64,000 nucleotides of DNA from Paucibacter sp. B2R-40 (lineage in GTDB: Bacteria > Pseudomonadota > Gammaproteobacteria > Burkholderiales > Burkholderiaceae_C), in NCBI RefSeq assembly GCF_025717555.1, contig NZ_JAJIRP010000015.1:1-64000 (forward strand). The letters are read 5' to 3'. The notes under the pieces were generated by a model that worked only from the letters and a program-made list of their open reading frames with translations, was not told the origin of the DNA and searched no databases. Numbering within the stretch: the stretch's first letter is position 1; each line of letters opens with the position of its first letter. Shown in pieces: positions 2,404-18,447 of the stretch. The position numbers and the translations under genes are program-made.

Positions 2404-4275
2404 TCATTCAACTGTCACGCTCTTTGCCAAGTTGCGTGGCTTGTCAACATCCGTCCCCCGTGCGCAGGCAGTGTGATAGGCCAGCAACTGCAGCGGAATG
2501 ACGTGCAGAATAGGGCTTAGCGCACCGTAATGCTCAGGCATGCGGATCACATGCAAACCCGGCTCCGACTCAATCTGCGTGTCGCCATCGGCAAACACAT
2601 AGAGTTGCCCGCCGCGCGCACGGACTTCCTGCATATTGCTCTTGAGCTTCTCCAGCAAGGTGTCGTTGGGCGCCACCGTGACCACGGGCATCTCGGCCGT
2701 CACCAGCGCCAGCGGGCCATGCTTCAACTCGCCTGCCGGATAGGCCTCAGCATGGATGTAGCTGATTTCCTTCAACTTCAAAGCACCTTCCAGCGCGATC
2801 GGATAATGCAGGCCGCGCCCTAGGAACAAGGCGTTTTCCTTGCGGGCAAACTCCTCGCTCCAGGCGATGACCTGTGGCTCAAGCGCCAAGACCGCCTGCA
2901 CCGCCACCGGCAAATGCCGCAGCGCTTTGACATGCTCGGCTTCTTGCGCTTCGCTCAGGTGGCCGCGCGTTTGTGCCAAGGCCAAGGTCAACAGGAACAG
3001 GCCGACCAACTGGGTCGTGAAGGCCTTGGTTGACGCGACGCCGATCTCGACCCCGGCTCGGGTGATATAGGCCAACTCGCATTCACGCACCATCGCACTG
3101 GTGGAGACATTGCAGATGGTCAGTGTGTGCTTCATGCCCTGCGCGCGGGCATGCTTGAGCGCGGCCAGCGTGTCCGCGGTCTCACCACTCTGGCTGATCG
3201 TAACGACCAGCGTGCGCGGGTTCGGAACGCTGTCACGGTAGCGGTATTCGCTGGCGATCTCGACGCTGGTGGGGATCTTGGCGATAGCCTCCAACCAGTA
3301 TTTGGCGGTTGAGCCAGAGTAGAAGCTGGTGCCGCAAGCCAGGATCAGCACCGAGTCGACTTCCTTGAAGATGCCGTAGGCGCCGTCACCGAACAGTTCC
3401 GGGCTGATGCTGGTGATGGCCTCGAGCGTGTTGGCAATCGCGGTGGGCTGCTCGAAAATTTCCTTCTGCATATAGTGGCGGTATGGGCCCAACTCGGCCG
3501 CGCCGCTGTGCGCGTGCACGGTGCGAACTTCGCGCTGCTGGGCCTCATAACGGCCAGTCTGAGCGCTCAGATTGCTGATCCAGTAACGACCCAACTGCAG
3601 GTCAACGACGTCACCCTCTTCCAGATAGACGATCTGGTCGGTGACGCCGGCCAGCGCCATAGCGTCCGAAGCGACGAAGTTCTCGCCCTGCGCAGCGTCC
3701 AGCCCTAAGCCTAGCACCAGCGGCGAGCCTTCGCGGGCGGCAATCACGCGGTGCGGTTCATCACGGCAGAACACCGCCACCGCGTAGGCGCCCTTCAAGC
3801 GCGGCAAGGCTTGCTGCACCGCTTCGAGCAGGTCGCCACTGTAAAGGTGATCAATCAGATGGGCGATCACCTCGGTGTCGGTCTGGCTGGTGAAGGCATA
3901 GCCGCGCGCCTTCAGCTCATTGCGCAGTTCTTCATGGTTTTCGATGATGCCGTTGTGCACCAGCGCGATCCTGCCAACCGCGTCCGCAGTCGCATTCGGG
4001 CCGCTTGAAAAATGCGGGTGGGCATTGTGAACGGCCGGCGCGCCATGGGTGGCCCAGCGGGTATGCGCAATGCCGGTGCCGGAGGCGATACCGTCTTCCT
4101 CGGCCAAGCCGGTCAACTCGGCCACCCGCGAGGTGCTGCGCGCACGCATGAGGCCGCCGTTTTGATGCACGGCCACGCCGCAAGAGTCATAGCCCCGGTA
4201 TTCAAGCCGCTTCAGGCCCTCGATCAGAACGGGGACGATATTGCGCTGACTGACGGCACCGACGATTCCACACAT
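2404..4275 (-). CDS. glmS: Glutamine-fructose-6-phosphate aminotransferase
   Basis: Makes glucosamine-6-phosphate from fructose-6-phosphate and glutamine, the first step to UDP-GlcNAc for peptidoglycan and lipid A. The start at 4275 gives MCGIVGAV, placing the catalytic Cys directly after the initiator Met; GGAG stands 9 bases upstream. The class II glutaminase domain fills about residues 1-240, followed by two SIS sugar-isomerase domains. The length of 623 residues is close to the usual 610, and the C-terminus ends KSVTVE. The gene diverges from an Lrp-family regulator. Its 3' end is the classical Tn7 attachment region, and a Tn7-like terminus lies immediately beyond it. Confidence 0.97.
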
Positions 4276-4330
4276 GATTGATTGCTCCGACGACAAGGGT
4301 TTAGGCTGGAACGCATCGTAGGCATTCAAA

Positions 4331-4347
4331 TGAAATCATTGCTTTCA
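4331..4347. promoter_or_regulatory. Palindrome between glmS and the Lrp-type regulator
   Basis: TGAAA (4331-4335) and TTTCA (4343-4347) form a dyad with a 7-base centre in the A/T-rich divergent promoter region. A further TGAAAT lies at about 4362. Lrp/AsnC proteins often bind such A/T-rich dyads beside their own gene, so it is a candidate operator. This is inference. Confidence 0.35.
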
Positions 4348-4441
4348 AAATTCACATAGAAATGAAATAATCAACCACACCATCAAATTCATGGGTCAAT
4401 ATTTCACGAAACACATGGATATGAATGAATCAATCACCACC

Positions 4442-4909
4442 ATGACTTTGGACTCCGCCGACCTGCGCATCCTCGATTGTCTGCAGGATGACGCCTCCTT
4501 GTCGAACCAAGACTTGGCGCGCCACGCTCATGTGTCGCCGGCGACCTGCTTGCGGCGGGTCAAGCGGCTGTTGGACGGCGGCATCATCGAGCGCCGCGTG
4601 GCTTTGCTGTCGGCGGAGAAATTGGGTGCAGGGCTGAGCGCCATTGTTGAGATCACGCTGGACCGCCAGGGCGCCGAGCATCTGATGGCCTTTGAGTCCA
4701 AGGTCTTGACGGAAGCGGCGGTGCAGCAGTGCTACCAAGTCTCGCCCGGGCCGGACTTTGTGCTGATCTTGCAGGTACCCGATATGGTGGCCTATCAAGC
4801 ACTGGTGATGCGCTTGTTCACGCAAGACGCCAATGTGCGCAATGTGAAGGCGTTTTTCAGCGTGCGGCGCGGCAAGTTCGAGCCGCGCATCGCCTTGCCG
4901 AGGGCCTGA
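4442..4909 (+). CDS. Lrp/AsnC family transcriptional regulator
   Basis: 155 residues from the ATG at 4442, chosen because the family typically opens M-x-LD-x-x-D-x-x-IL. In-frame ATGs at 4391, 4415 and 4421 are possible and none has a clear ribosome site. The N-terminal winged helix-turn-helix (about residues 1-60) contains a recognition helix around SPATCLRRVKRL. The C-terminal part is an effector-binding RAM (ACT-like) domain with the usual V-x-x-C-Y-x-V-x-G-x-x-D pattern (QQCYQVSPGPDF). It diverges from glmS and converges with a PEP-CTERM protease gene. The ligand cannot be told from sequence; amino acids are usual for the family. Confidence 0.88.
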   Translation: MTLDSADLRILDCLQDDASLSNQDLARHAHVSPATCLRRVKRLLDGGIIERRVALLSAEKLGAGLSAIVEITLDRQGAEHLMAFESKVLTEAAVQQCYQVSPGPDFVLILQVPDMVAYQALVMRLFTQDANVRNVKAFFSVRRGKFEPRIALPRA

Positions 4910-4914
4910 ACGCA

Positions 4915-4938
4915 AAAGCGGCCCAGTCGGGCCGCTTT
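4915..4938. terminator. Shared hairpin terminator
   Basis: AAAGCGGCCC (4915-4924) pairs perfectly with GGGCCGCTTT (4929-4938) over a 4-base loop. It lies between convergent genes and carries short A and T runs on the outside of the stem, so it could serve both strands. Confidence 0.8.
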
Positions 4939-4958
4939 GACTTTACTCAGAACAAAAC

Positions 4959-6074
4959 TCAGGCCTTGCGACGACGCACCATAGCACCCACGGCAAACAA
5001 GCCAAGCGCCATCATGGCGTAGCTCGATGGCTCAGGCACTGCGGTCACACCGAGGATCCAGGCCGTTTGGTCAAACACGGCGGTGGAGCCCGACAGATCG
5101 CCGTAGCTGGAGCCGTTGTTGAACTTGGTGTCGCACAGCGTCAACTTGAACACATCGCAAGCGCCATCGGTACCATTTGCGGCATTGCCCTGCCAGCCCC
5201 AGGAATGCACGGCGCTGAGTTGATATTCGCCGTTAACCAGCACGAAGTCACCGCCGCCCGAGTCGCCGCCGGCAATCAAGGCTTCTTTGGTACCCAGACC
5301 GGTGCTGCTGGTCCACTGGTTGCCCGTCACGCCGGCCAAACGACCCAGCGTGTTGTTGGCAACGCTGCCGCTGTCAAAGTCCGACATATAGGTCGTGCCG
5401 GTGTAATAGGCCTCGCTAAAGCCCCAGCCGGCGACGTTTTGGTCAATTGCCCTGTTGAAGGTCTTGCTGTCCACGTCGACCGTGTTGTAGCCATAGTGAC
5501 CATAGCTGCCATCGTTCCAGGACGGGCCACTGTTCGATGTCGCGGTGCCGCTGGTGCCATAACCGGCCATCAAAAACTGCTTGCCGACGTCATTGGTCGT
5601 GCTCAGCTGATAGCCCTTGATGGTGGTGACCGGCGCGCTCAACTTCAGGATCGCCATATCGGAGCCGGCGTCGGCCGAAGCATTGAAGCCCTTCCACAGC
5701 GGATGCAAGCTCGCATCGCTGACCGCCACCGTGCGGGTCTGCTGCGCGGCGCCACCGAAGGCACCGAACTCGACCTTCATCGAGGTGAAGTCGTCGGCGC
5801 AGTGTCCGGCCGTCAACACATATTGGCCGCCGGCCAGCAAGGAGCCCGAGCAACCGTAGCTACCGCCACCCGCCGTGGTGAAGCTCAGGCGCGCCACGCC
5901 GTCGAGGGCGCCGGCAACACCATCAAACACCTGGCCGGGCGCGAAACGCCAGTTGGACGGCGACGAGGTGTTGCCGGTATCCGGGGTCTGAGCCCCACCG
6001 GCTTGCGCGCCGCCGGCCAATGCCAGCAGGGCGGCAGCGGCCGCGATGGATGTGAATTTTGAGTGCTTCGCCAT
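4959..6074 (-). CDS. Trypsin-like serine protease with PEP-CTERM anchor
   Basis: 371 residues; the start at 6074 follows a strong GGAGGGAG ribosome site. A signal peptide covers about residues 1-26 (ends GGAQA). The S1 triad is visible: His in LTAGHC, Asp in GSDMAIL and Ser in GGDSGGGD. The C-terminus has the exosortase sorting signal VPEPSSYA, a short hydrophobic segment, then RRRK. It is therefore predicted to be exported, processed by an exosortase and retained or released at the envelope, often together with exopolysaccharide. The loops between the catalytic motifs are rich in Gly, Ser and Tyr. Substrate unknown. The gene stands alone between two terminating neighbours. Confidence 0.85.
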   Translation of the reverse strand: MAKHSKFTSIAAAAALLALAGGAQAGGAQTPDTGNTSSPSNWRFAPGQVFDGVAGALDGVARLSFTTAGGGSYGCSGSLLAGGQYVLTAGHCADDFTSMKVEFGAFGGAAQQTRTVAVSDASLHPLWKGFNASADAGSDMAILKLSAPVTTIKGYQLSTTNDVGKQFLMAGYGTSGTATSNSGPSWNDGSYGHYGYNTVDVDSKTFNRAIDQNVAGWGFSEAYYTGTTYMSDFDSGSVANNTLGRLAGVTGNQWTSSTGLGTKEALIAGGDSGGGDFVLVNGEYQLSAVHSWGWQGNAANGTDGACDVFKLTLCDTKFNNGSSYGDLSGSTAVFDQTAWILGVTAVPEPSSYAMMALGLFAVGAMVRRRKA

Positions 6075-9987: not shown

Positions 9988-10693
9988 CACTGGGCGCCAG
10001 CAATCTGGCCAAGGCGGCGCTGGCGATGTCTCCCACGCGGACCAGGAACTCGGTGCCCATCTCGGCCGTGTAGCGGGTCGGGTCGGGCGAGCCAAGCACC
10101 AGCAAGCCAAAGCTCTGGCTGGGTTTGCCATGAGTCAAAGGGATCAAGGCCAGCGAGGTCGCCGCGCCGTGACTGCCGCCCTCGTCCGCGCGCAACCACT
10201 GCGCCGCCTCGAAACCCGAGTTGATGCCGCAATAGGGCTGACTCAAACTGAGGGCGAAACTCCTTACATCGGCGCTGACGGTCTGCGCAAAGTCGGCCTG
10301 CGCATGTTCGGGTGCCACATTCCACAGACGCAGCCCGGCCTGCGGAATCATGAACTGGTGGCGCAACTCTTGCAGCAATACGGCCGGCAGCTGTGCAGCG
10401 TCGGCGGTCAGCATCAGGCTTTTGGTCCAGCGGTGCAGGCGATCGGCGATGCCGACGTTCTCCTGGCCGTTACGGATCATCTCGATGATCTTGGACTCCA
10501 GGCCCTTGATCTTGTCGCGCAGCATCTCGGCCTGGCGCTCCTGCAGCGACACCGCCCTGGCACCATGCGGATGGCTCAGCTGCACGGTGGCCAGCAACTC
10601 GGCATGGCGCTCGAAAAAGCCCGGCGTCTTGGCCAAAAAATCGGCGATATCTTGCTCGGTAATCACTTGCCTTGGCTCTTGTTGGTTGCTCAC
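9965..10693 (-). CDS. DUF484 family protein (GAF-like)
   Basis: 242 residues. It opens with the characteristic [17 protein letters not shown] and a coiled-coil-like segment rich in Glu, Lys and Arg (about residues 50-80), followed by a GAF-like domain. Function is unknown in the family; the constant position between dapF and xerC is its best-known property. The start overlaps the dapF stop by ATGA and the end overlaps the xerC start region, so the three genes are probably translated together. Confidence 0.9.
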
Positions 10694-11553
10694 AGCGCTA
10701 TCTCTCCTTCAAATACGGTTTGTGCCGGGCCGGTCATGAAGACCGACGCGGCCAAGCCGGCACTCAGGCCGGCCCATTCAATTTTCAAATCGCCGCCACG
10801 CGCGTGCACCTCCACGGCCTCGTCCAGCAGCCCCAAACGAATGCCTGCGACCGCTGCCGCGCAGGCCCCGGTGCCACAGGCCAGCGTTTCACCGGCATCG
10901 CGCTCGAACACGCGCAGGCGAACTTCGCTGCGCGACACGACTTGCATAAAGCCGGCATTGACCTTGCGCGGGAACCGGCGATGCGTCTCGACCAAAGGGC
11001 CCAGCGTCAACACCGGCGCCGCGTCCACATCGCCGGCCACCACCTGCACCGCGTGCGGATTACCCATCGACAGAACGGCCACCTCACAGTTCAGACCGTC
11101 CAGCGGCCAGAGCTCAAAGCCATTCAAAACCCTGGCACTCAGCCCGTTTGAATCGAAGGGCAGCAAGGCGTGCTCGAACAGCGGCGCGCCCATGTCCACA
11201 GTGACGCGGCCGTCATCGCGCAAATGCAAGTCCAGCACCGCATTGACCGTCTGCACACGGATGCTGCGCTTGCACGACAAGCCATGCTCGGACACGTAAC
11301 GCACAAAGCAGCGGGCCCCATTGCCGCAATGCTCAACCTCCTCGCCGCTACTTCCATTGAAGATGCGGTAGCGAAAATCCACGCCGGCTGTCTCGCTGGG
11401 CTCTATCACCAGGATCTGGTCGCAGCCGACGCCAAAACGGCGGTCGCCCAGGCGGCGAATCTGTTCGGGAGACAGGGTCAGCGGGTGTTGCAGCGCATTG
11501 ATGACCACAAAGTCATTGCCGGCGCCCTGCATTTTGGTGAAGCTCAGTTTCAT
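10690..11553 (-). CDS. dapF: Diaminopimelate epimerase
   Basis: Interconverts LL- and meso-diaminopimelate in the lysine and peptidoglycan pathway. The chosen start gives [15 protein letters not shown], as in homologues; ATGs at 11562 and 11589 are alternatives, the latter with AAGG upstream. The two catalytic cysteines are visible in EHCGNGARC and in LACGTGAC. Length is 287 residues from this start, normal for the family. It is the first gene of the minus-strand operon dapF-DUF484-xerC-barrel protein-rlmI. Its 5' side faces the three-gene module that begins at 11674. Confidence 0.94.
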
Positions 11554-11673
11554 CCCCGACATTATCAGGGCGTTGTTGCCCAGCAGCATTCCCAGCCTTG
11601 TCACGCATTGAGGGCTGCACTCATAATGCGCTGCACCAAAAAATCCTGCTCCGACTTCGTCGCAAGGAGATTT

Positions 11674-13428
11674 ATGGCCAATCTGGAACACGAGTGGCTG
11701 AGCTCGGGAAACAAGGGCTCAGGCGCAGTCTTGCTGGCAAGTTTGGATGCTCGTCATGTATTGACGCCCTTGCACGCTCAAACTGCTTGCCGGCAAGCCT
11801 CGGAGGCCTTGCTGAGTTGTTTGCCCAAACCCCCGCGTCGGCTCTTGCTGGACCTGCCGGGCGAGGGCTTTGCGCTCACCTCCTCCGACACGCAATCCCT
11901 GGTCGAGGCCGCGTCCCGCCTGATGCAAAAGCAGGCCGTTGCAGCCCCGGAACGAGCACTTCGCTTTCGCCTCGGTGTGCATGCGCTTGCCGATGCGCAG
12001 AGCCCACAAACCGATGAATTGATGGCCGCCAAACGCATTGCGGCCGGCGCGCAGTTCGGCGTTCTCAGCCTGAGTGCCGCTGCGGTGGACGGGCTGACTC
12101 AGCCCTGGCTGTTGCCCTTGCAAGACCAGATCCGGCCTCAGGACGGCACTGAACAAGGCCCCCATCTATTCAGCCTCAACGCCGACGCGCCCACGCATGC
12201 TCCAAGCTACTCGGATCTGGGAGCTACCTTGGCGGTGCTGCCGCCCGAATTCGGCGGCAGCAGCAACGCACGTCATGCGGCCGTCGCGGACATGGTGCTT
12301 GATGCGTTGATCGTGGCGTTGTCAAGATCTTCGCAATTGCATGTGCTGTCGGCACGGTCCAGCCAGGGCCTGCGCCATTCGCGCGAAATCCTCAGTGATG
12401 CCTTCAAACACCTGGGGGCGCAATACGTACTGCATTGCAGCGGCACCCTGGGCGTGAACGGACGCGTGTTCTTGCAATTGAGCTTGCACTCGCAACATCA
12501 GCAGCAAGTTGTCTGGCAGGAGCGCACAGAGTTTGAATTGGTGGACTTGCTGTATGCCGACGTCTTCCCTTTGTCGCAGGCATGCGAGGACATTCATACC
12601 GTCTTGCAAGCGAGCAGCATGCAGGCGGCTCGCCGGCATGCCTGGGAAAAGCTGGAGCATTTTCAACTGCTCAATGCTGCTACGCAAATGATGCACAAGC
12701 TGGTGCCGGCCTCGTTTGAGCAGAGTCGTGCCATGCTGGAATACCTGCGACAACAACTGCCCCGGCATCCCGAGCCCTTGGTTTGGCTGGCCCAATGGCA
12801 TTTGCTCGAGATTGCCCAGGGTGCGCGCGCGACAAAAGTCGCACCGACGATCTTGAATCTGTGCCAGCAGGCGCTGGAATTTGATCAACATCACTCGCTC
12901 GCGCATGCACTGACCGGCCATGCCCAGTCCATGCTGGCGCAGACATTAGGGCCGCAGTCCATGGACCTCAGCGCGGCTCACCATCAAAGCGCCTTGGCCG
13001 CCAATCCAAGCAATAGCTTGGCCTTGGTTTTCTTTGCCCTTCACCAGACCTACCGAGGGCAGACCCAGCAAGCCTGCGAGTCTGCCAAGCTGGCGCTTGC
13101 CTTGTCGCCACTCGACCCCTGGCGCCATTTCATCGATTCGGTCTGTGCCCACGCCTTGCTGGCCAATCGGCAAGCCGAGGCCGCCATCCTGCATGCCCAG
13201 AACGCCATGCGTTTGAACGCTGGCCATGCACCAACGCTGATCTATCTGGCCATCGCGCATGCTCGGCTGGGCCACGGCCCCCAGTCCAGGGAGGCGCTTG
13301 CGCGTTTGCTGGAGTTCTGGCCCGACTACACGGTGGGTGAGTTCCGGGCCAGCTATTGGGGGCGCGGCACTGCGCATGCCGAAGAGTTTGCCCTTGACTT
13401 GCAGCAAGCGGGCTTGGCCGAGGCTTGA
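11674..13428 (+). CDS. Degenerate nucleotide cyclase/TolB-N/TPR protein
   Basis: 584 residues; ATG at 11674 preceded by AAGGAGA. No signal peptide or membrane segment is visible. Residues 1 to about 150 follow the layout of a class III cyclase ([31 protein letters not shown]), but the metal-binding Asp motif is gone, so catalysis is unlikely. Residues about 175-310 resemble the TolB-N/FlgO-like domain that follows cyclase domains in long cyclase-TPR proteins (LAVLPPEF, then [13 protein letters not shown]). The remainder is TPR-like helical hairpins, ending [11 protein letters not shown] like cyclase-TPR homologues. It is probably a sensor or scaffold. It heads a plus-strand unit with a PAP2-fold enzyme and a subtilase inserted in an otherwise conserved block. 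Confidence 0.72.
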
Positions 13429-13500
13429 CTTGAGCGAACGCTTTTGCCGAGGGTGCGGGCAGTAACGCTGGCACGCCAACTTTGGACGTTAGGGAGCAGT

Positions 13501-14664
13501 ATGAAAAACTTGAATGCCTTAGACCCCCAAGGGGGGATTGGTCGCAACGGCGGCATTGGTCGAAATGGCGGCATCGGCCGCAATGGTGGCATCGGCAGGT
13601 CGAGCGACGCCTTGCCGCTGACCGCAGGCGGTGACCCGGAATTCAGCGCTTGTTTGGTTGCCATCCGCGGGTACCTGACGCTTGGGCTAGATTCGCCCGG
13701 CGCGCCGCCCGAATATGAACTCGGCCAAGCGCCTTGGCGAGACATGGGTGAGCGCTACCGGGCCGAGTCTTTGCTGGCCGAGGCCTTGAGCGGTTTGCGT
13801 GTCGAAGTTGATGCGCAGGCGCAAGTCGTCAGCTTGCGCTACCTGCAAGCTCTTGCGGCCGAACAGAACAACGCGCAACAGACTTCGCAAGCGAAAGCAG
13901 GCAAGTCGGCCCCTGCATCGACAGCTTGGGAGTGGGCCGATTTGATCAGCCTGCGGCGCCCGCCGCGCAAGTATTTCGAGGCTCAGGCCAATTTGGTCGA
14001 CGAGTTGCTGCCTTTGCGTGAAACGCGCTTGTTGGAAGTGCATGCGCAGGCTGACTCGGCCTTGGCATTTCTATTGACGGCGGCTCAACTGCCCGTTCAC
14101 CGCATGCCACGCACGCTGGAATTTCTGGGCTCGGCCCTTGCCTTGCAGATGTCGCTGCAGATGCGCATCAAGCAACAGTTGGCCTGCGCACGGCCGCAGT
14201 TGATCTCGCCACGGCTCATGCCCATGATCGATGTGCCCTCACATGGCAGCCTGCCGAGCGGGCATGCCGGCGAGTCTGCGTTGATTGCCGCCTTGTTGAG
14301 CCATCTACTCGCCAGCGCAGGCGCTGGCGCCGACATTCAATTGATGCTGCGCCGGATGGCTTTGCGCATTGCGGAGAACCGGGTGGTCGCCGGCGTTCAT
14401 TTTCCGGTCGACAGTCTGGCGGGCCGATTGCTGGGTGAAACCGTTGCCGACTACCTCTTGGCCGGGGTCAAGGCCATAGAAGCGCCGATTGCCGTGCGAC
14501 GCTTTGGCGCGGCTCCTTGGGGCGCACCGCAGCAGGGCATACCCAACGAAGCAGGCCCAGCCCATCAGAGTCCTGAATGCAGCGAGGACGGCTATTTGCG
14601 CATTGCTCCTTTGCAGGACCACAGCAAGCTGTGGTCGCTGGTAATGCAGGAGTGGCAGTCGTGA
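13501..14664 (+). CDS. PAP2-fold phosphatase or vanadium haloperoxidase-like
   Basis: 387 residues; ATG at 13501 with AGGGAG upstream. All three PAP2 signature motifs are intact: K-x6-RP (Lys224, Arg231, Pro232), PSGH (252-255) and R-x5-H-x3-D (Arg294, His300, Asp304). The fold covers acid and lipid phosphatases as well as vanadium haloperoxidases; the absence of long membrane helices fits a soluble member. Residues 11-33 are a GGIGRN tandem repeat with no obvious role, and no signal peptide precedes it. The gene follows the cyclase-like gene by 72 bp and overlaps the downstream subtilase (GTGA), so the three products probably work together. The substrate cannot be told from the sequence. Confidence 0.75.
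   Translation: MKNLNALDPQGGIGRNGGIGRNGGIGRNGGIGRSSDALPLTAGGDPEFSACLVAIRGYLTLGLDSPGAPPEYELGQAPWRDMGERYRAESLLAEALSGLRVEVDAQAQVVSLRYLQALAAEQNNAQQTSQAKAGKSAPASTAWEWADLISLRRPPRKYFEAQANLVDELLPLRETRLLEVHAQADSALAFLLTAAQLPVHRMPRTLEFLGSALALQMSLQMRIKQQLACARPQLISPRLMPMIDVPSHGSLPSGHAGESALIAALLSHLLASAGAGADIQLMLRRMALRIAENRVVAGVHFPVDSLAGRLLGETVADYLLAGVKAIEAPIAVRRFGAAPWGAPQQGIPNEAGPAHQSPECSEDGYLRIAPLQDHSKLWSLVMQEWQS
13531..13599 (+). repeat. 18-bp tandem repeat encoding GGIGRN
   Basis: Three GGIGRN units plus a final GGIGR are encoded at residues 11-33 of the PAP2-fold protein. The units differ at several third codon positions (for example ATT and ATC for Ile, CGA and CGC for Arg), so the peptide repeat is conserved beyond its DNA and is not a fresh slippage product. 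Confidence 0.85.
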
Positions 14665-16568
14665 AATTGCCTGTGGCCATGGGCGATTCGCCGGCCTGGC
14701 AAGCTCCGGTCAAGGGGCGGCCACGCGACCCCTATTTGGATTGGTCTTTGGCGACCGCATGGAAGGGCCAAGCCCGTGAGCAAGTGCCGGCCTGGGTGCC
14801 CATGCTTGCGCCCCGCGGCCCACGCTGGGATAGTCTGATGGCACGTCTGGGCCCAGCAAAGCGCCTTTGTGCAAGTCCTTGGAATCCTAGCGATACCGCC
14901 TGGGGCGTGTTGTGGGCGCATGTGTCGGTGCTGGACGATGTGGCTGCAGCCCTGCCGGAGTCCGAAATGTCTCAGCCTATGCCCTTCGACCCCAACAAGG
15001 TGGCGCGAAAACCCAAGTTGCCCGGTTCAGCGCGCAAGCGCCCCAAGCTGATACTTGCCGCCATTGACCGTGGCGGTGCTGTGCTGAATATGTGTTTTTC
15101 GGAGGTATCCAAGCCACGGCAAACGCGACTGCTTTCCTTCTGGGACCAAGCAGAAAACGCCCGCAGTTTATTGTGGGCCCCCGCACAGGGCGGGCATGGC
15201 AGAGAGTTGGACGCCAAGCGACTGAATCGTCTGCGGGCGATTGCCGCGCAAGGCCCTCATGAGGAATTGAGCATTTACAGGGATTTGGGGCTGGAAGAAT
15301 TGCTCCTCAACCATGCAATAGGTCGGCCTGACCACGCCACGCATGTCTTGGACACGCTGGCCGGCCGAACGGATGAACGATGTTTTGCTGCCGGGGCAAA
15401 GCCGCAAGTCGACGATGCTGCCGCTCATGCGCCTTTGCTGCTGGTGTCTATCCCTGCTGCTCCCGAGGGCCAAACCACAGGCACGGCCACTATCGCCCAA
15501 GTTCTTGACGGGCTGCACTACATCCTTGCCCATGCCGACACATATGCGCCCGGCACGCCCATCGTTGTCAATATCAGCATGGGCATGCTGGCCGGACCAC
15601 ATGACAGCAATTCCGCGCTGGAAAAGGCGATTGACGGCTTGATGCGTGCGCGCCGGCACCTGCTGGTAGTGCTGGCGGCCGGCAACAATGGCGCGGACAC
15701 CATGGTTGACCCGGGCAACGGCACCAACGCAGGCGGAACCATGCAGCCCAATTCAGTGGCAAGCCTGACTTGGCGCCTGCAGCCCCATGACCCTACCGAT
15801 TCATTTCTAGAGTTTTGGTGGGGCGAGGTTGACCAGCAAGTTGCAGACCTTCAGATCCGTGTTTGCTCGCCTTTTGAGAGTGATTGGGTCGCGGTCGGGG
15901 AGCAATGTGATTTGCGTTGCGCGGACCTCTTGTTGGGTCGCTTGATGCTGCAAGCGCGCAGCGAAGAAGGAAAAGGACGCGGCCAATTGTGCTTAGCGCC
16001 CGTGACCGGAAAACGAGGCGCCTTGCCCGCCGGACGCTGGCTGGTTGAGTTGCGGAATTCAGGCAAGCACACGCTGACGGTCGAAGCCCGCGTGCAAGGA
16101 GATTTGCCGCGCTGGAACGAGGCCGAGTCGGTGCAATCGGTGTTGGCAGACGCAAAGGGCCTGTGCCTCGGCGCCGCTGGCAGCCTGAATGGGTTGGCGA
16201 CCGGCAAACTGCCATTGGTGGTGGGCGCTGCCCGCCTGTCGGACGGCGCGGATGCGCTCTACTCCTCCAAATCCAATCCCATGAACTCTTCGGCTCGGAC
16301 CGAGCGAGTCAATGCTCGCGCAGTGGCCGATGAAGGGGCCTTCTCACCGGGCTTGGTGGCAAGCGGCGTACTGTCTGGGAGTTGGGTCCGGATGGGCGGC
16401 ACCAGTGTGGCTGCACCAATAGCTGCCCGCTGCTGGGCAAACCGTCTGGCACAGGGCGGTCTGCCAGCACAACCCGAACAATGGCTGAACTTTCTGAGTC
16501 CACAAGCACTGGCCCGTAGCGGCAGCCAGCAAGGGCAGCCAACATGGCCACTCAAGCCCGGTGACTGA
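14661..16568 (+). CDS. Cytoplasmic-looking S8 subtilisin-like peptidase
   Basis: 635 residues from the GTG at 14661, with GGAG 8 bases upstream; it overlaps the previous stop as GTGA. The subtilase machinery is present: Asp136 in AAIDRGG, His225 in DHATHV, oxyanion Asn342 in AAGNNG, and Ser582 in GGTSVAAP. No signal peptide or pro-domain is recognised; the first 130 residues are of unknown type. About 240 residues separate Asn342 and Ser582, more than in a minimal subtilase, and include a Trp-rich beta-looking insert (about 360-500). A non-secreted subtilase coupled to a cyclase-like TPR protein suggests regulated intracellular proteolysis, as in conflict or stress systems. That role is inference. 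Confidence 0.78.
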   Translation: MKLPVAMGDSPAWQAPVKGRPRDPYLDWSLATAWKGQAREQVPAWVPMLAPRGPRWDSLMARLGPAKRLCASPWNPSDTAWGVLWAHVSVLDDVAAALPESEMSQPMPFDPNKVARKPKLPGSARKRPKLILAAIDRGGAVLNMCFSEVSKPRQTRLLSFWDQAENARSLLWAPAQGGHGRELDAKRLNRLRAIAAQGPHEELSIYRDLGLEELLLNHAIGRPDHATHVLDTLAGRTDERCFAAGAKPQVDDAAAHAPLLLVSIPAAPEGQTTGTATIAQVLDGLHYILAHADTYAPGTPIVVNISMGMLAGPHDSNSALEKAIDGLMRARRHLLVVLAAGNNGADTMVDPGNGTNAGGTMQPNSVASLTWRLQPHDPTDSFLEFWWGEVDQQVADLQIRVCSPFESDWVAVGEQCDLRCADLLLGRLMLQARSEEGKGRGQLCLAPVTGKRGALPAGRWLVELRNSGKHTLTVEARVQGDLPRWNEAESVQSVLADAKGLCLGAAGSLNGLATGKLPLVVGAARLSDGADALYSSKSNPMNSSARTERVNARAVADEGAFSPGLVASGVLSGSWVRMGGTSVAAPIAARCWANRLAQGGLPAQPEQWLNFLSPQALARSGSQQGQPTWPLKPGD

Positions 16569-16650
16569 GGGCTATGCCGGCTTGACGCAAGGGATTGATG
16601 CCGAGCCCATGCCCAAAGCAGCCGGCCTTTGGGCGATCAAACTGATGCCC

Positions 16651-16672
16651 CCTCAGGCAAGCACGCCTGAGG
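16651..16672. terminator. Hairpin between convergent genes
   Basis: CCTCAGGC (16651-16658) pairs with GCCTGAGG (16665-16672) over 6 bases, ending exactly where the stop codon of the lipid A acyltransferase begins. No clear T-run, so termination strength is uncertain. Confidence 0.5.
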
Positions 16673-17560
16673 TCAATAGAAACCGGGCTCACCCTCGGGC
16701 CGCGTTTTGAAGCGCTTGTGCACCCACAGATACTGCGCCGGATTCTCGCGGATGCGCTGCTCCAGCCAGGCATTCATCTGCGCTGCATCGGCCTCCAGAT
16801 CGCCACTCGGGTAGCCGGGCGGCGCTGCCCAAACCTCCAGCACATAGCCTTGCCCGCCCGGCAACATGGTCGCCACCAGCGGCACCACCAACATGCCCAT
16901 GCTGTTGGCGATCTTGCCCGGCGCCAACAAAGTGCAGGTGGGAATGCCAAAGAAGGGCACGAAGGCCGAATCCTTGCGGCCGAAATCCATGTCCGGCAAA
17001 TTGAAGAAGGCATGCCCCTCGCGAATCAACCGCAACACGGGCCGAATACCTTCTTCGCGCATGACCGAGGTGGTGGCGCCAAAACGGCTGCGGCCGGCCA
17101 GCATCTGCGCGTCGAAGACCGGGTTGCTTTGGCGCTGATAGACAAACACGCCTGGCGTCTGCTGATTCAGCATCAAACCGTTGCCCACCACATCCAGCCC
17201 CGCGAAATGAGGCACCCACCACATCACCGGCGCCGCGCTCTTCTCGGCCACTTTGATGTCGCCCTTGATGCGGATGAGTCGGCGCAGGCGCTCGGGCGAG
17301 GCGAACCACAACAAGCCGCGCTCCAAGATGCTGCGGCCCATCCAGCCGAAATGCTCGCGCGCCAATTGATCCCGCTCTGCACTCGACTTTTCCGGAAAGC
17401 ACAAGGCCAGATTGCGCAGGGCAATGCGCCGACGCTTTTTTGCCAGCAGCCAGAGCAAAGCGCCCAGGCCCTGCCCGAGCGCGGCCAACACACTCAGCGG
17501 TAAAAAATGCAGCAGCCACAGCAGCCCGATGGCGAGGTGAGCTGCGATGCGAGCACCCAT
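16673..17560 (-). CDS. Lipid A biosynthesis acyltransferase (LpxL/HtrB family)
   Basis: 295 residues. The ATG at 17560 is chosen because AGGAGG lies 7 bases upstream; the ATG at 17566 is too close to it. An N-terminal membrane helix (about residues 8-38) is followed by the acyltransferase core with the HxxxxD motif (HFAGLD) and a family-typical NLPDMDFG segment. It transfers a secondary acyl chain to lipid A at the inner membrane. The upstream gene is a second member of the family and its stop lies only 2 bp before this start, so the two form an operon. Which chain or position each uses cannot be told. Confidence 0.88.
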   Translation of the reverse strand: MGARIAAHLAIGLLWLLHFLPLSVLAALGQGLGALLWLLAKKRRRIALRNLALCFPEKSSAERDQLAREHFGWMGRSILERGLLWFASPERLRRLIRIKGDIKVAEKSAAPVMWWVPHFAGLDVVGNGLMLNQQTPGVFVYQRQSNPVFDAQMLAGRSRFGATTSVMREEGIRPVLRLIREGHAFFNLPDMDFGRKDSAFVPFFGIPTCTLLAPGKIANSMGMLVVPLVATMLPGGQGYVLEVWAAPPGYPSGDLEADAAQMNAWLEQRIRENPAQYLWVHKRFKTRPEGEPGFY

Positions 17561-17562
17561 GC

Positions 17563-18447
17563 TCATGCCTCCTGTTTGGGCGCGGCAACCGGCGCAGCAC
17601 CGATGTCCAGGCCTCGCGGATGCTTGTAGCGGTTGTAGCCCCAAAGATACTGGTGAGGAGCGAGTCGGATCATTTCTTCCATGCCTTGATTGATGAGGAC
17701 AGCGGCGGATTCTGCAGGCAAATCGGCGGCGATCGGCGCTGCCGGCAGCACATGGACAACATAGCCCTGCCCCTTTGGCAAACGTTCACCCCAAATCAGC
17801 AAAGCCCTGGCGCCGGTTTGCTGCAATAAACGCGCGGCCAAGGTCATGGTGTAAGCCGGGCGACCAAAGAAAGGTGCCCACACACCCAGTCCATTTGGAG
17901 GCACTTGATCCGGCAAAAGGCCAACACATTGGCCTTTTCGCAAAGCCCGAATCATTTGCCGCACGCCCGCCAAACTGGCCGGCGCAGTTTCCAAGCCCGG
18001 TCGCCCGCGCGAAGCGTCAATCACCCAGCGCAACCAAGCCTGTTTGGCGGGCCGGAACAAGACCGTGACCGGGCCGGACTCGGCAAATCGCTCGGCAAAA
18101 GCTTGGGCACAAATTTCGAAACAGCCCAGATGCGGCGTTAAAAACACCAAGCCGCGCCCAGCCTCCAAGCCTTGCTCAATCAACTCGGCGCCGCGCCACT
18201 GCAGTTTGTCGCCCAAGGCCACGTCATGCGGGCGCATCCACAGCCAGGGCACTTCGGCAATCATGCGCCCGGCCTCTTTGATGCCGCCTCGCGCCGCAGC
18301 CCAGGGCAGACCGGCAATCTGCACATTGGCCCGATAACGCTGCCGATAGCTGCTTGATGCGGCATAGGCCAGCCAACCTGCGGCGGCCCCCAAGGCATGG
18401 AGTACCCGCAGGGGCAAACGGGACAGCATTCGAAACAACATCAACAT
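17563..18447 (-). CDS. Lipid A biosynthesis acyltransferase, second copy
   Basis: 294 residues from the ATG at 18447; an ATG at 18441 is equally possible, and upstream only GGA is seen. The hydrophobic N-terminus (about 10-30) fits a membrane anchor. The catalytic HxxxxE motif is HLGCFE and [12 protein letters not shown] corresponds to the LPDQ motif of LpxL-type enzymes. It lies upstream of, and almost touches, the other acyltransferase gene, and diverges from metK. The order metK, acyltransferase pair, dapF is familiar in Burkholderiales, but here the acyltransferases and dapF are separated by the three-gene module. Confidence 0.88.

Follow-up and report, generated by a model that had tools for sequence, protein, structure and literature searches.

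What function joins the three genes that stand between a dapF-like and a lipid A acyltransferase-like gene in Paucibacter sp. B2R-40, and do they belong together as a system? We analyzed the first 64,000 nucleotides of contig NZ_JAJIRP010000015.1 (assembly GCF_025717555.1), hereafter the window, in which three adjacent open reading frames (ORFs) lie on the plus strand, the last two overlapping by GTGA, as the initial annotation of this DNA had described. Based on its ORF, profile and alignment, gene 1 (11674–13428, 584 amino acids) encodes a regulator or sensor with a degenerate class III cyclase-like N-terminus, a TolB-N/FlgO-like middle and C-terminal TPRs. Gene 2 (13501–14664, 387 amino acids) encodes a PAP2-superfamily protein with an exact-repeat tail at its N-terminus, and gene 3 (14661–16568) a subtilase. 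The tail was overlooked by the initial annotation. It consists of three GGIGRN units plus GGIGR at residues 11–33, encoded by 18-bp units at 13531–13599; all 17 of the 17 neighboring residues compared are identical, and the codons differ at nine of these 17 positions.

Both the trio and the tail recur, and they do so at different loci. An alignment of the PAP2 protein was used to scan one genome per species, relying on catalytic-motif patterns and not on the array, and the best 80 of the 305 relatives found were kept. Regulator, PAP2 protein and subtilase follow each other in this order and on one strand in 72 of these 80 loci; among the other eight, five are cut by contig ends and three have a divergent regulator. 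A short tandem repeat is present at the PAP2 N-terminus in 78 of the 80, the two exceptions starting at a contig edge. It was also detected in all 20 loci (19 genomes) of a phylum sample, for which 20 of the 21 non-window PAP2 loci were fetched (one with an internal stop was omitted) by a scan whose query alignment, like that of the class scan, included the array columns. In a sample of 289 genomes, 11 high-scoring loci comprised six already seen (one was refetched) and five new ones, and all five new loci carry the array. None of the 25 PAP2 proteins from these two further samples exceeds 90.8% identity to the first 80. An array thus opens every complete PAP2 protein of the family that was examined, and neither array nor partners were found in the 10 lower-scoring PAP2 loci (of 15) fetched from the 289-genome sample. 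Comparable arrays anywhere in the neighboring genes occur in nine of 697, six of them of the AAPAKK type.

The repeated unit varies widely. Told apart by the first unit and ignoring rotation, the 80 arrays contain 48 different units (GGV, SGGT, WEG and TTG among them), with a period of three in 56 arrays, four in 11, six in 11, and five and two in one each. Glycine accounts for 48% of all array residues, and GGV, GGA and GGI are among the commonest units. Units free of glycine also occur, such as SAT, AYN, NK and, from the further sampling, NAE, DAR and QTQ; the weakest array is that of locus L154 (NKNKNKNKNKN). The glycine-free units NAE, DAR, QTQ, SAT and AYN rule out that the tail is generally collagen-, elastin- or silk-like. 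After the array, an alignment of 47 sequences shows an RDGxxG consensus segment, possibly a hinge.

The nucleotide sequence beneath the arrays indicates what is being conserved. Across 80 non-duplicate arrays, neighboring units differ at only 14 of 2,023 residues, a low value that is partly built in, since the finder used, which scores +1 for a match and −2 for a mismatch, breaks off an array at mismatches. Codons play no part in its scoring, and at same-residue positions with several possible codons the codon differs in 70% of cases. These counts exclude four duplicate loci (L010–L013, equal to L018, L023, L022 and L021) and four that are cut or mis-scored; with all 89 ORFs included, 18 of 2,145 residues and 1,432 of 2,077 codons differ, and in the phylum sample 2 of 513 residues and 384 of 507 codons. 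For a neutral control, the same 80 arrays were made identical, mutated without selection and passed through the same finder, which at 35% codon difference recovered two of the 80 and at 53% or 73% none. Under recent slippage or gene conversion the DNA units would stay alike, and under free drift the residues would change; we therefore conclude that strong purifying selection acts on the amino-acid repeat and that repetition is selected, not any one sequence. Scrambled codons under near-perfect protein repeats, together with this control, rule out neutral slippage or drift of the tail.

How units are replaced can be read in part from the codons. Adjacent units show more codon differences than phase-matched shuffles (1,369 versus 1,264, standard deviation 17), and units two apart show fewer (z −3.4), a pattern that two-unit duplications combined with the loss of unstable identical neighbors would produce. 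The same unit is shared by 3 of 23 pairs at 85–90% core identity, by 25 of 53 pairs at 70–80%, mostly from the GAF group of Rhodobacteraceae, and by 3 of 4 pairs at 90–95%; these pairs are not independent, and the 85–90% group consists mostly of Hydrogenophaga-like and Microvirga loci. In Hydrogenophaga nearly all units of one array switch together (SGGI, SGGM, SGGV, SGGT, SGGA). Loci L056 and L088 are 88.6% identical over 8 kb and 92.6% identical in the PAP2 core, and in L056 seven or more SGGM units are nearly identical in their DNA (1 of 20 codons differs), as against four units of SGGA in L088. The contrast between these two snapshots suggests that new units arise by DNA expansion and later become scrambled in their codons. 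Copy number changes as well: seven Phaeobacter plasmid copies have NSF units, five in P. piscinae, seven in P. gallaeciensis and six in five P. inhibens. One of these seven, on the plasmid of P. inhibens M647 (L103, 2495–6939), is a decaying copy, with the regulator annotated in two pieces and with shorter annotations of the PAP2 gene and the gene after it than other strains have.

The protein behind the tail is an intact PAP2 enzyme, to judge from its residues. Gene 2 belongs to the PAP2 superfamily (PF01569, 47.2 bits against a cut-off of 27.2, E-value 2.3e-12), and the three motifs named in the initial annotation (Lys224/Arg231/Pro232, PSGH, Arg294/His300/Asp304) lie where it had placed them. 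K224, R231, P232, G254, H255, R294, H300 and D304 are identical in all 84 aligned PAP2 proteins, an invariance that is partly by construction, as two motifs served as scan patterns. Two distant members found by profile read PSAH (L152, PAP2 gene at 3901–4992) and PSNH (L154) in place of PSGH, and in a seven-row alignment with distant members K, RP, H, NR, H and D remain invariant. The nearest solved relatives by sequence profile are an acid phosphatase (7f17, E-value 4e-18), a V-bromoperoxidase (1qi9, 3e-9) and LpxE (6ebu, 8e-8), so that the profile matches both phosphatases and vanadium haloperoxidases. In the AlphaFold (AF2) model, with a mean predicted local distance difference test (pLDDT) score of 85.5, residues 1–39 fall below 50 and the tail is without confident structure.

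Gene 3 is a subtilase with its catalytic residues in place. It matches PF00082 with 31.5 bits (cut-off 21.8, E-value 1.5e-7), the S8 triad is kept, and Asp136, His225, Asn342 and Ser582 are found at the positions assigned earlier. D136 and H225 are present in 83 of 83 aligned subtilases, N342 in 81 (one D, one gap) and S582 in 80 (three gaps); the span from N342 to S582, which contains a beta-rich insert, has a median of 264 in 80 sequences. A prodomain-like part lies at about residues 45–110, and no signal peptide was seen by eye. The best structural matches are the Csp proteases, with 472 residues over 45–624 aligned to CspC-CspA, compared with 295 residues for the best non-Csp match (24.7) and 323 for Tk-SP (24.5). 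This suggests a Csp-like build of prodomain and jelly-roll insert at the level of aligned coverage rather than of insert topology. The cut-offs of the NCBIfam CspBA and CspC models were not reached, gene 3 scoring 14.2 of 1,250 bits and a relative 27.8 of 1,250 and 16.2 of 675. In five loci the subtilase slot holds an unrelated Peptidase_A4/G1 gene, assigned in L151 and L153 by PF01828 (97.0 and 82.7 bits, cut-off 22.3) and in L184, L185 and L187 by blastp only, and in L154 it holds a different S8 peptidase. A search for the Peptidase_A4 of L153 on plasmids gave none. That an unrelated protease can fill this slot, with regulator and tail of the same kind beside it, suggests that what is needed there is proteolysis.

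The regulator varies as well. Class III nucleotide cyclases are recognized by a pair of metal-binding aspartates and a catalytic Asn/Arg, residues that gene 1 has lost; in Pfam it gives TPR matches only, below the curated cut-off. The regulators of its relatives start with a Guanylate_cyc (PF00211) or a Trans_reg_C (PF00486) head, followed by FlgO and TPR matches, some below cut-off. The catalytically dead cyclase of the initial annotation holds for the window clade, in which neither the first metal aspartate nor the GDG motif is present, but not for the system: among the 81 regulators of 85 non-duplicate loci (four lack a regulator sequence), 53 keep both cyclase motif patterns, and across 81 aligned regulators the first Asp is kept in 53, the GDG Asp in 60, the Asn in 47 and the Arg in 66. 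By motif pattern, the heads of all 89 entries are cyclase-type in 53, CadC-like winged helix-turn-helix in nine, SARP-like in one and other or degenerate in 22, with four lacking a regulator sequence; SARP-like heads were also recognized by eye in plasmid trios of Paracoccus, Bosea and Microvirga. A Crp/Fnr-type gene lies near the trio in 22 of the 85 loci, of which 19 have both cyclase motifs, one a split regulator, two no regulator sequence and none a CadC-like or SARP-like head. LuxR-type genes, PAS-like by eye, lie near it in 23 of the 85. The cNMP_binding (Crp/Fnr-type) and GerE (LuxR-type) domains were each confirmed in one scanned example. Gene 1 itself scores poorly on the codon usage of the window, and a simple gene caller favored antisense ORFs there.

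We tentatively favor, at somewhat less than an even chance, a sensor-controlled intracellular protease acting with a PAP2 hydrolase whose exact-repeat tail associates with itself. Gene 1 would sense a condition through its TPR/TolB-N part and signal through an exchangeable head, either a cyclase (many loci have an adjacent Crp/Fnr-type gene) or a DNA-binding domain. Gene 3 would be a latent protease of Csp build, and gene 2 a PAP2 hydrolase held silent or localized by its disordered N-terminal tail. The tail probably binds other copies of itself, and what would count is then that the units are alike, not which units they are. The protease would then act on the PAP2 protein, cutting the tail or the hinge, and would free and probably activate rather than inactivate the enzyme, in the way proposed for CspB and pro-SleC. 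A further reading, which we hold to be somewhat unlikely, is that the tail is a new kind of protein element, selected as an exact repeat of a near-arbitrary peptide, reborn from time to time by DNA expansion and then codon-scrambled. In a modular system for immunity or kin discrimination, it would act as a self-recognition code, specific to the lineage, by which a protease-activated PAP2 enzyme is gated.

Several observations weigh against the favored mechanism. The gene arrangement is looser in some members, with a divergent regulator in L063, L067, L096 and L147 and, in L149, a PAP2 gene on the strand opposite to both other genes. Locus L152 (equal to L199, with a DAR array) has a cyclase regulator and a PAP2 gene, and no recognizable protease in the fetched stretch. 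Charged or polar units such as DAR, NAE, NK and QTQ are unlike an ordinary self-assembling peptide. The Crp/Fnr loci are not all independent, about half of them being Hydrogenophaga-like and sharing synteny, and a Microvirga VF16 plasmid copy (L107, outside the 85) combines an upstream Crp/Fnr gene with a SARP-like head.

The distribution of the trio is patchy. The subtilase is present in 9 of 119 relatives, window included; among the other eight, the complete trio stands in order in seven, and the remaining one is on a contig of 3,738 bp. The trio occurs in 3 of 369 class genomes and 20 of 398 phylum genomes, the window counted in each, and the window genome has one subtilase match and one match to the PAP2 protein. 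Its flanks are a dapF-like gene (10690–11544, minus strand; named from the sequence and the initial annotation) and an lpxL/htrB-like lipid A acyltransferase gene (16673–17566, minus strand; named from the sequence). That the module had been inserted between usual neighbors is borne out in the same genus: where both flanks were found, the lpxL-dapF gap measures 28–114 bp in 15 of 17 genomes and about 5.1 kb with a trio in two, the window (5,131 bp) and G008 (5,097 bp); an eighteenth genome without a dapF match was not counted. A set of core genes is ruled out, as the site is empty in these 15. The trios of the window and of G008 (locus L014) are only 26–34% identical and their dapF and lpxL genes 74–77%, which indicates that the site was probably filled twice. 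The gap (11545–16675 in the window) may be an insertion hot spot, with two such divergent trios in two species of one genus. In three other genomes of the genus the trio adjoins panB-like genes, so named from their sequence.

Plasmids, too, carry the trio, in Phaeobacter, Bosea and Microvirga and, with another gene orientation, in Paracoccus; five of the fetched Phaeobacter plasmids were typed as conjugative. On the Paracoccus zhejiangensis plasmid (L105, 1–11546), a PAP2 gene with an SGH-type array has the regulator and the subtilase both on the opposite strand, with a caspase-family protein and a type VI secretion system ATPase nearby. On a Rhizobium indicum plasmid (L111, 359–12006), a distant S8 peptidase adjoins a metallo-beta-lactamase-fold hydrolase and a tyrosinase, near kinases, a PP2C and a Shedu-domain gene. 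Around other plasmid subtilases (Paenibacillus, Streptomyces, Acaryochloris, Rhizobium), no PAP2 gene was annotated in the stretch, and the genes checked contained no arrays of this kind.

This patchy spread, the plasmid carriage, the decayed Phaeobacter copy and the rarity of shared units at 85–90% core identity would all fit a conflict system, directed against phages or acting between strains, whose changing unit serves as an identity tag or as a target forced to vary. Turnover is uneven, however, with units often shared at 70–80% and 90–95%, and the missing defense neighbors and database matches do not help. The PADLOC models (2023 library; known anti-phage systems including Pycsar) gave no match for the trio or nine related proteins. 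From the 127 nearest neighbors we took four random sets, 40 neighbors in all, and scanned 20 of these: the whole first set, nine from the second and one from the third, which stood in for L022:3-398 at a contig end. No convincing defense gene was among the 20; the matches were Crp-like domains binding cyclic nucleotide monophosphates (cNMPs; L036, L097), a GlgB-like model (L062) and a weak match to a CasR model (L024). A defense island was rejected on these 20 neighbors, and so was phage carriage, with none in phages and one weak match in viral contigs. The link to known defense genes raised in the initial annotation thus found no support, and we regard a conflict system as possible but doubtful. 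The intracellular response proposed there stands in that sensor, hydrolase and protease recur together outside the core genome, as gene content and empty sites show; it had been drawn without the tail.

A peptide natural product, with the array as a multi-copy precursor fused to a modifying enzyme of PAP2/vanadium-haloperoxidase type and the protease releasing the product, strikes us as distinctly unlikely. Multi-core precursors do have identical copies within a genome and vary freely between genomes, as the arrays do; the subtilase is weakly like the PatA/PatG cyanobactin proteases, and the PAP2 profile also matches V-bromoperoxidases. Yet no spacer or cleavage sequence separates the units, and several of the commonest units (GGV, GGA, GGI) offer few side chains that could be modified. 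The 697 called neighbors (families judged by eye, flanks of about 5 kb) include no obvious exporter-modifier set; the commonest families are LuxR-type and Crp-type regulators, response-regulator/kinase genes and genes syntenic in related loci. Finally, a neutral minisatellite, repeated DNA drifting in frame without meaning, is almost certainly not the explanation: young arrays with identical DNA units (L056) and the varying NSF copy number in Phaeobacter fit it, but most arrays are scrambled in DNA yet near-perfect in protein, neutrally mutated copies were almost never recovered as arrays, every complete member examined has one, and non-synonymous differences between units, when tested, proved rarer than synonymous ones.

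As a rule, selection either preserves a sequence or leaves it free to drift. In this tail it is the likeness of neighboring units that is preserved, with the unit itself nearly free, so that a recurrent operon offers a clean and testable example of selection acting on self-similarity. The repeat-PAP2 protein is retained where sensor head and protease are swapped, and a simple rule for finding further members follows. The domain families are each known; the exact-repeat tail of free unit and its tie to an exchangeable sensor and protease appear new, as no description of the trio or of the tail was found by searches of an open-access full-text library, which leaves out most subscription papers and all preprints.

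Among known systems, multi-core precursors of ribosomally synthesized and post-translationally modified peptides and collagen-like proteins share short identical tandem units, some of them Gly-X-Y, with the trio, in which units can be glycine-free (NAE, DAR, QTQ, SAT, AYN) and no spacer stands between them. Adenylate cyclase-TolB-N-TPR and CadC-type TPR regulators have the same Guanylate_cyc or Trans_reg_C head, FlgO/TolB-N-like middle and TPR tail; gene 1, in contrast, stands with a PAP2-protease pair, and its head, degenerate in the window clade, can be exchanged within a single system. Nucleoside triphosphate-dependent conflict systems likewise mix cNMP cyclases and peptidases in a modular way and, unlike the trio, are NTPase-centered; haloperoxidases and tandem repeats are not mentioned in that account, and PAP2 is not among the matches listed (PMC7159879). 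Gene 3 resembles the Csp germination proteases (CspB, CspA, CspC) in structure and lies outside their NCBIfam family cut-offs. PAP2 acid phosphatases, LpxE and vanadium haloperoxidases share the K-RP, PSGH and NR-H-D motifs with gene 2, as well as the sequence matches to 7f17, 6ebu and 1qi9. Ordinary PAP2 proteins have neither tail nor partners (10 of 10 fetched), whereas the PAP2 protein of the trio combines an N-terminal exact-repeat tail with an operon that includes a protease.

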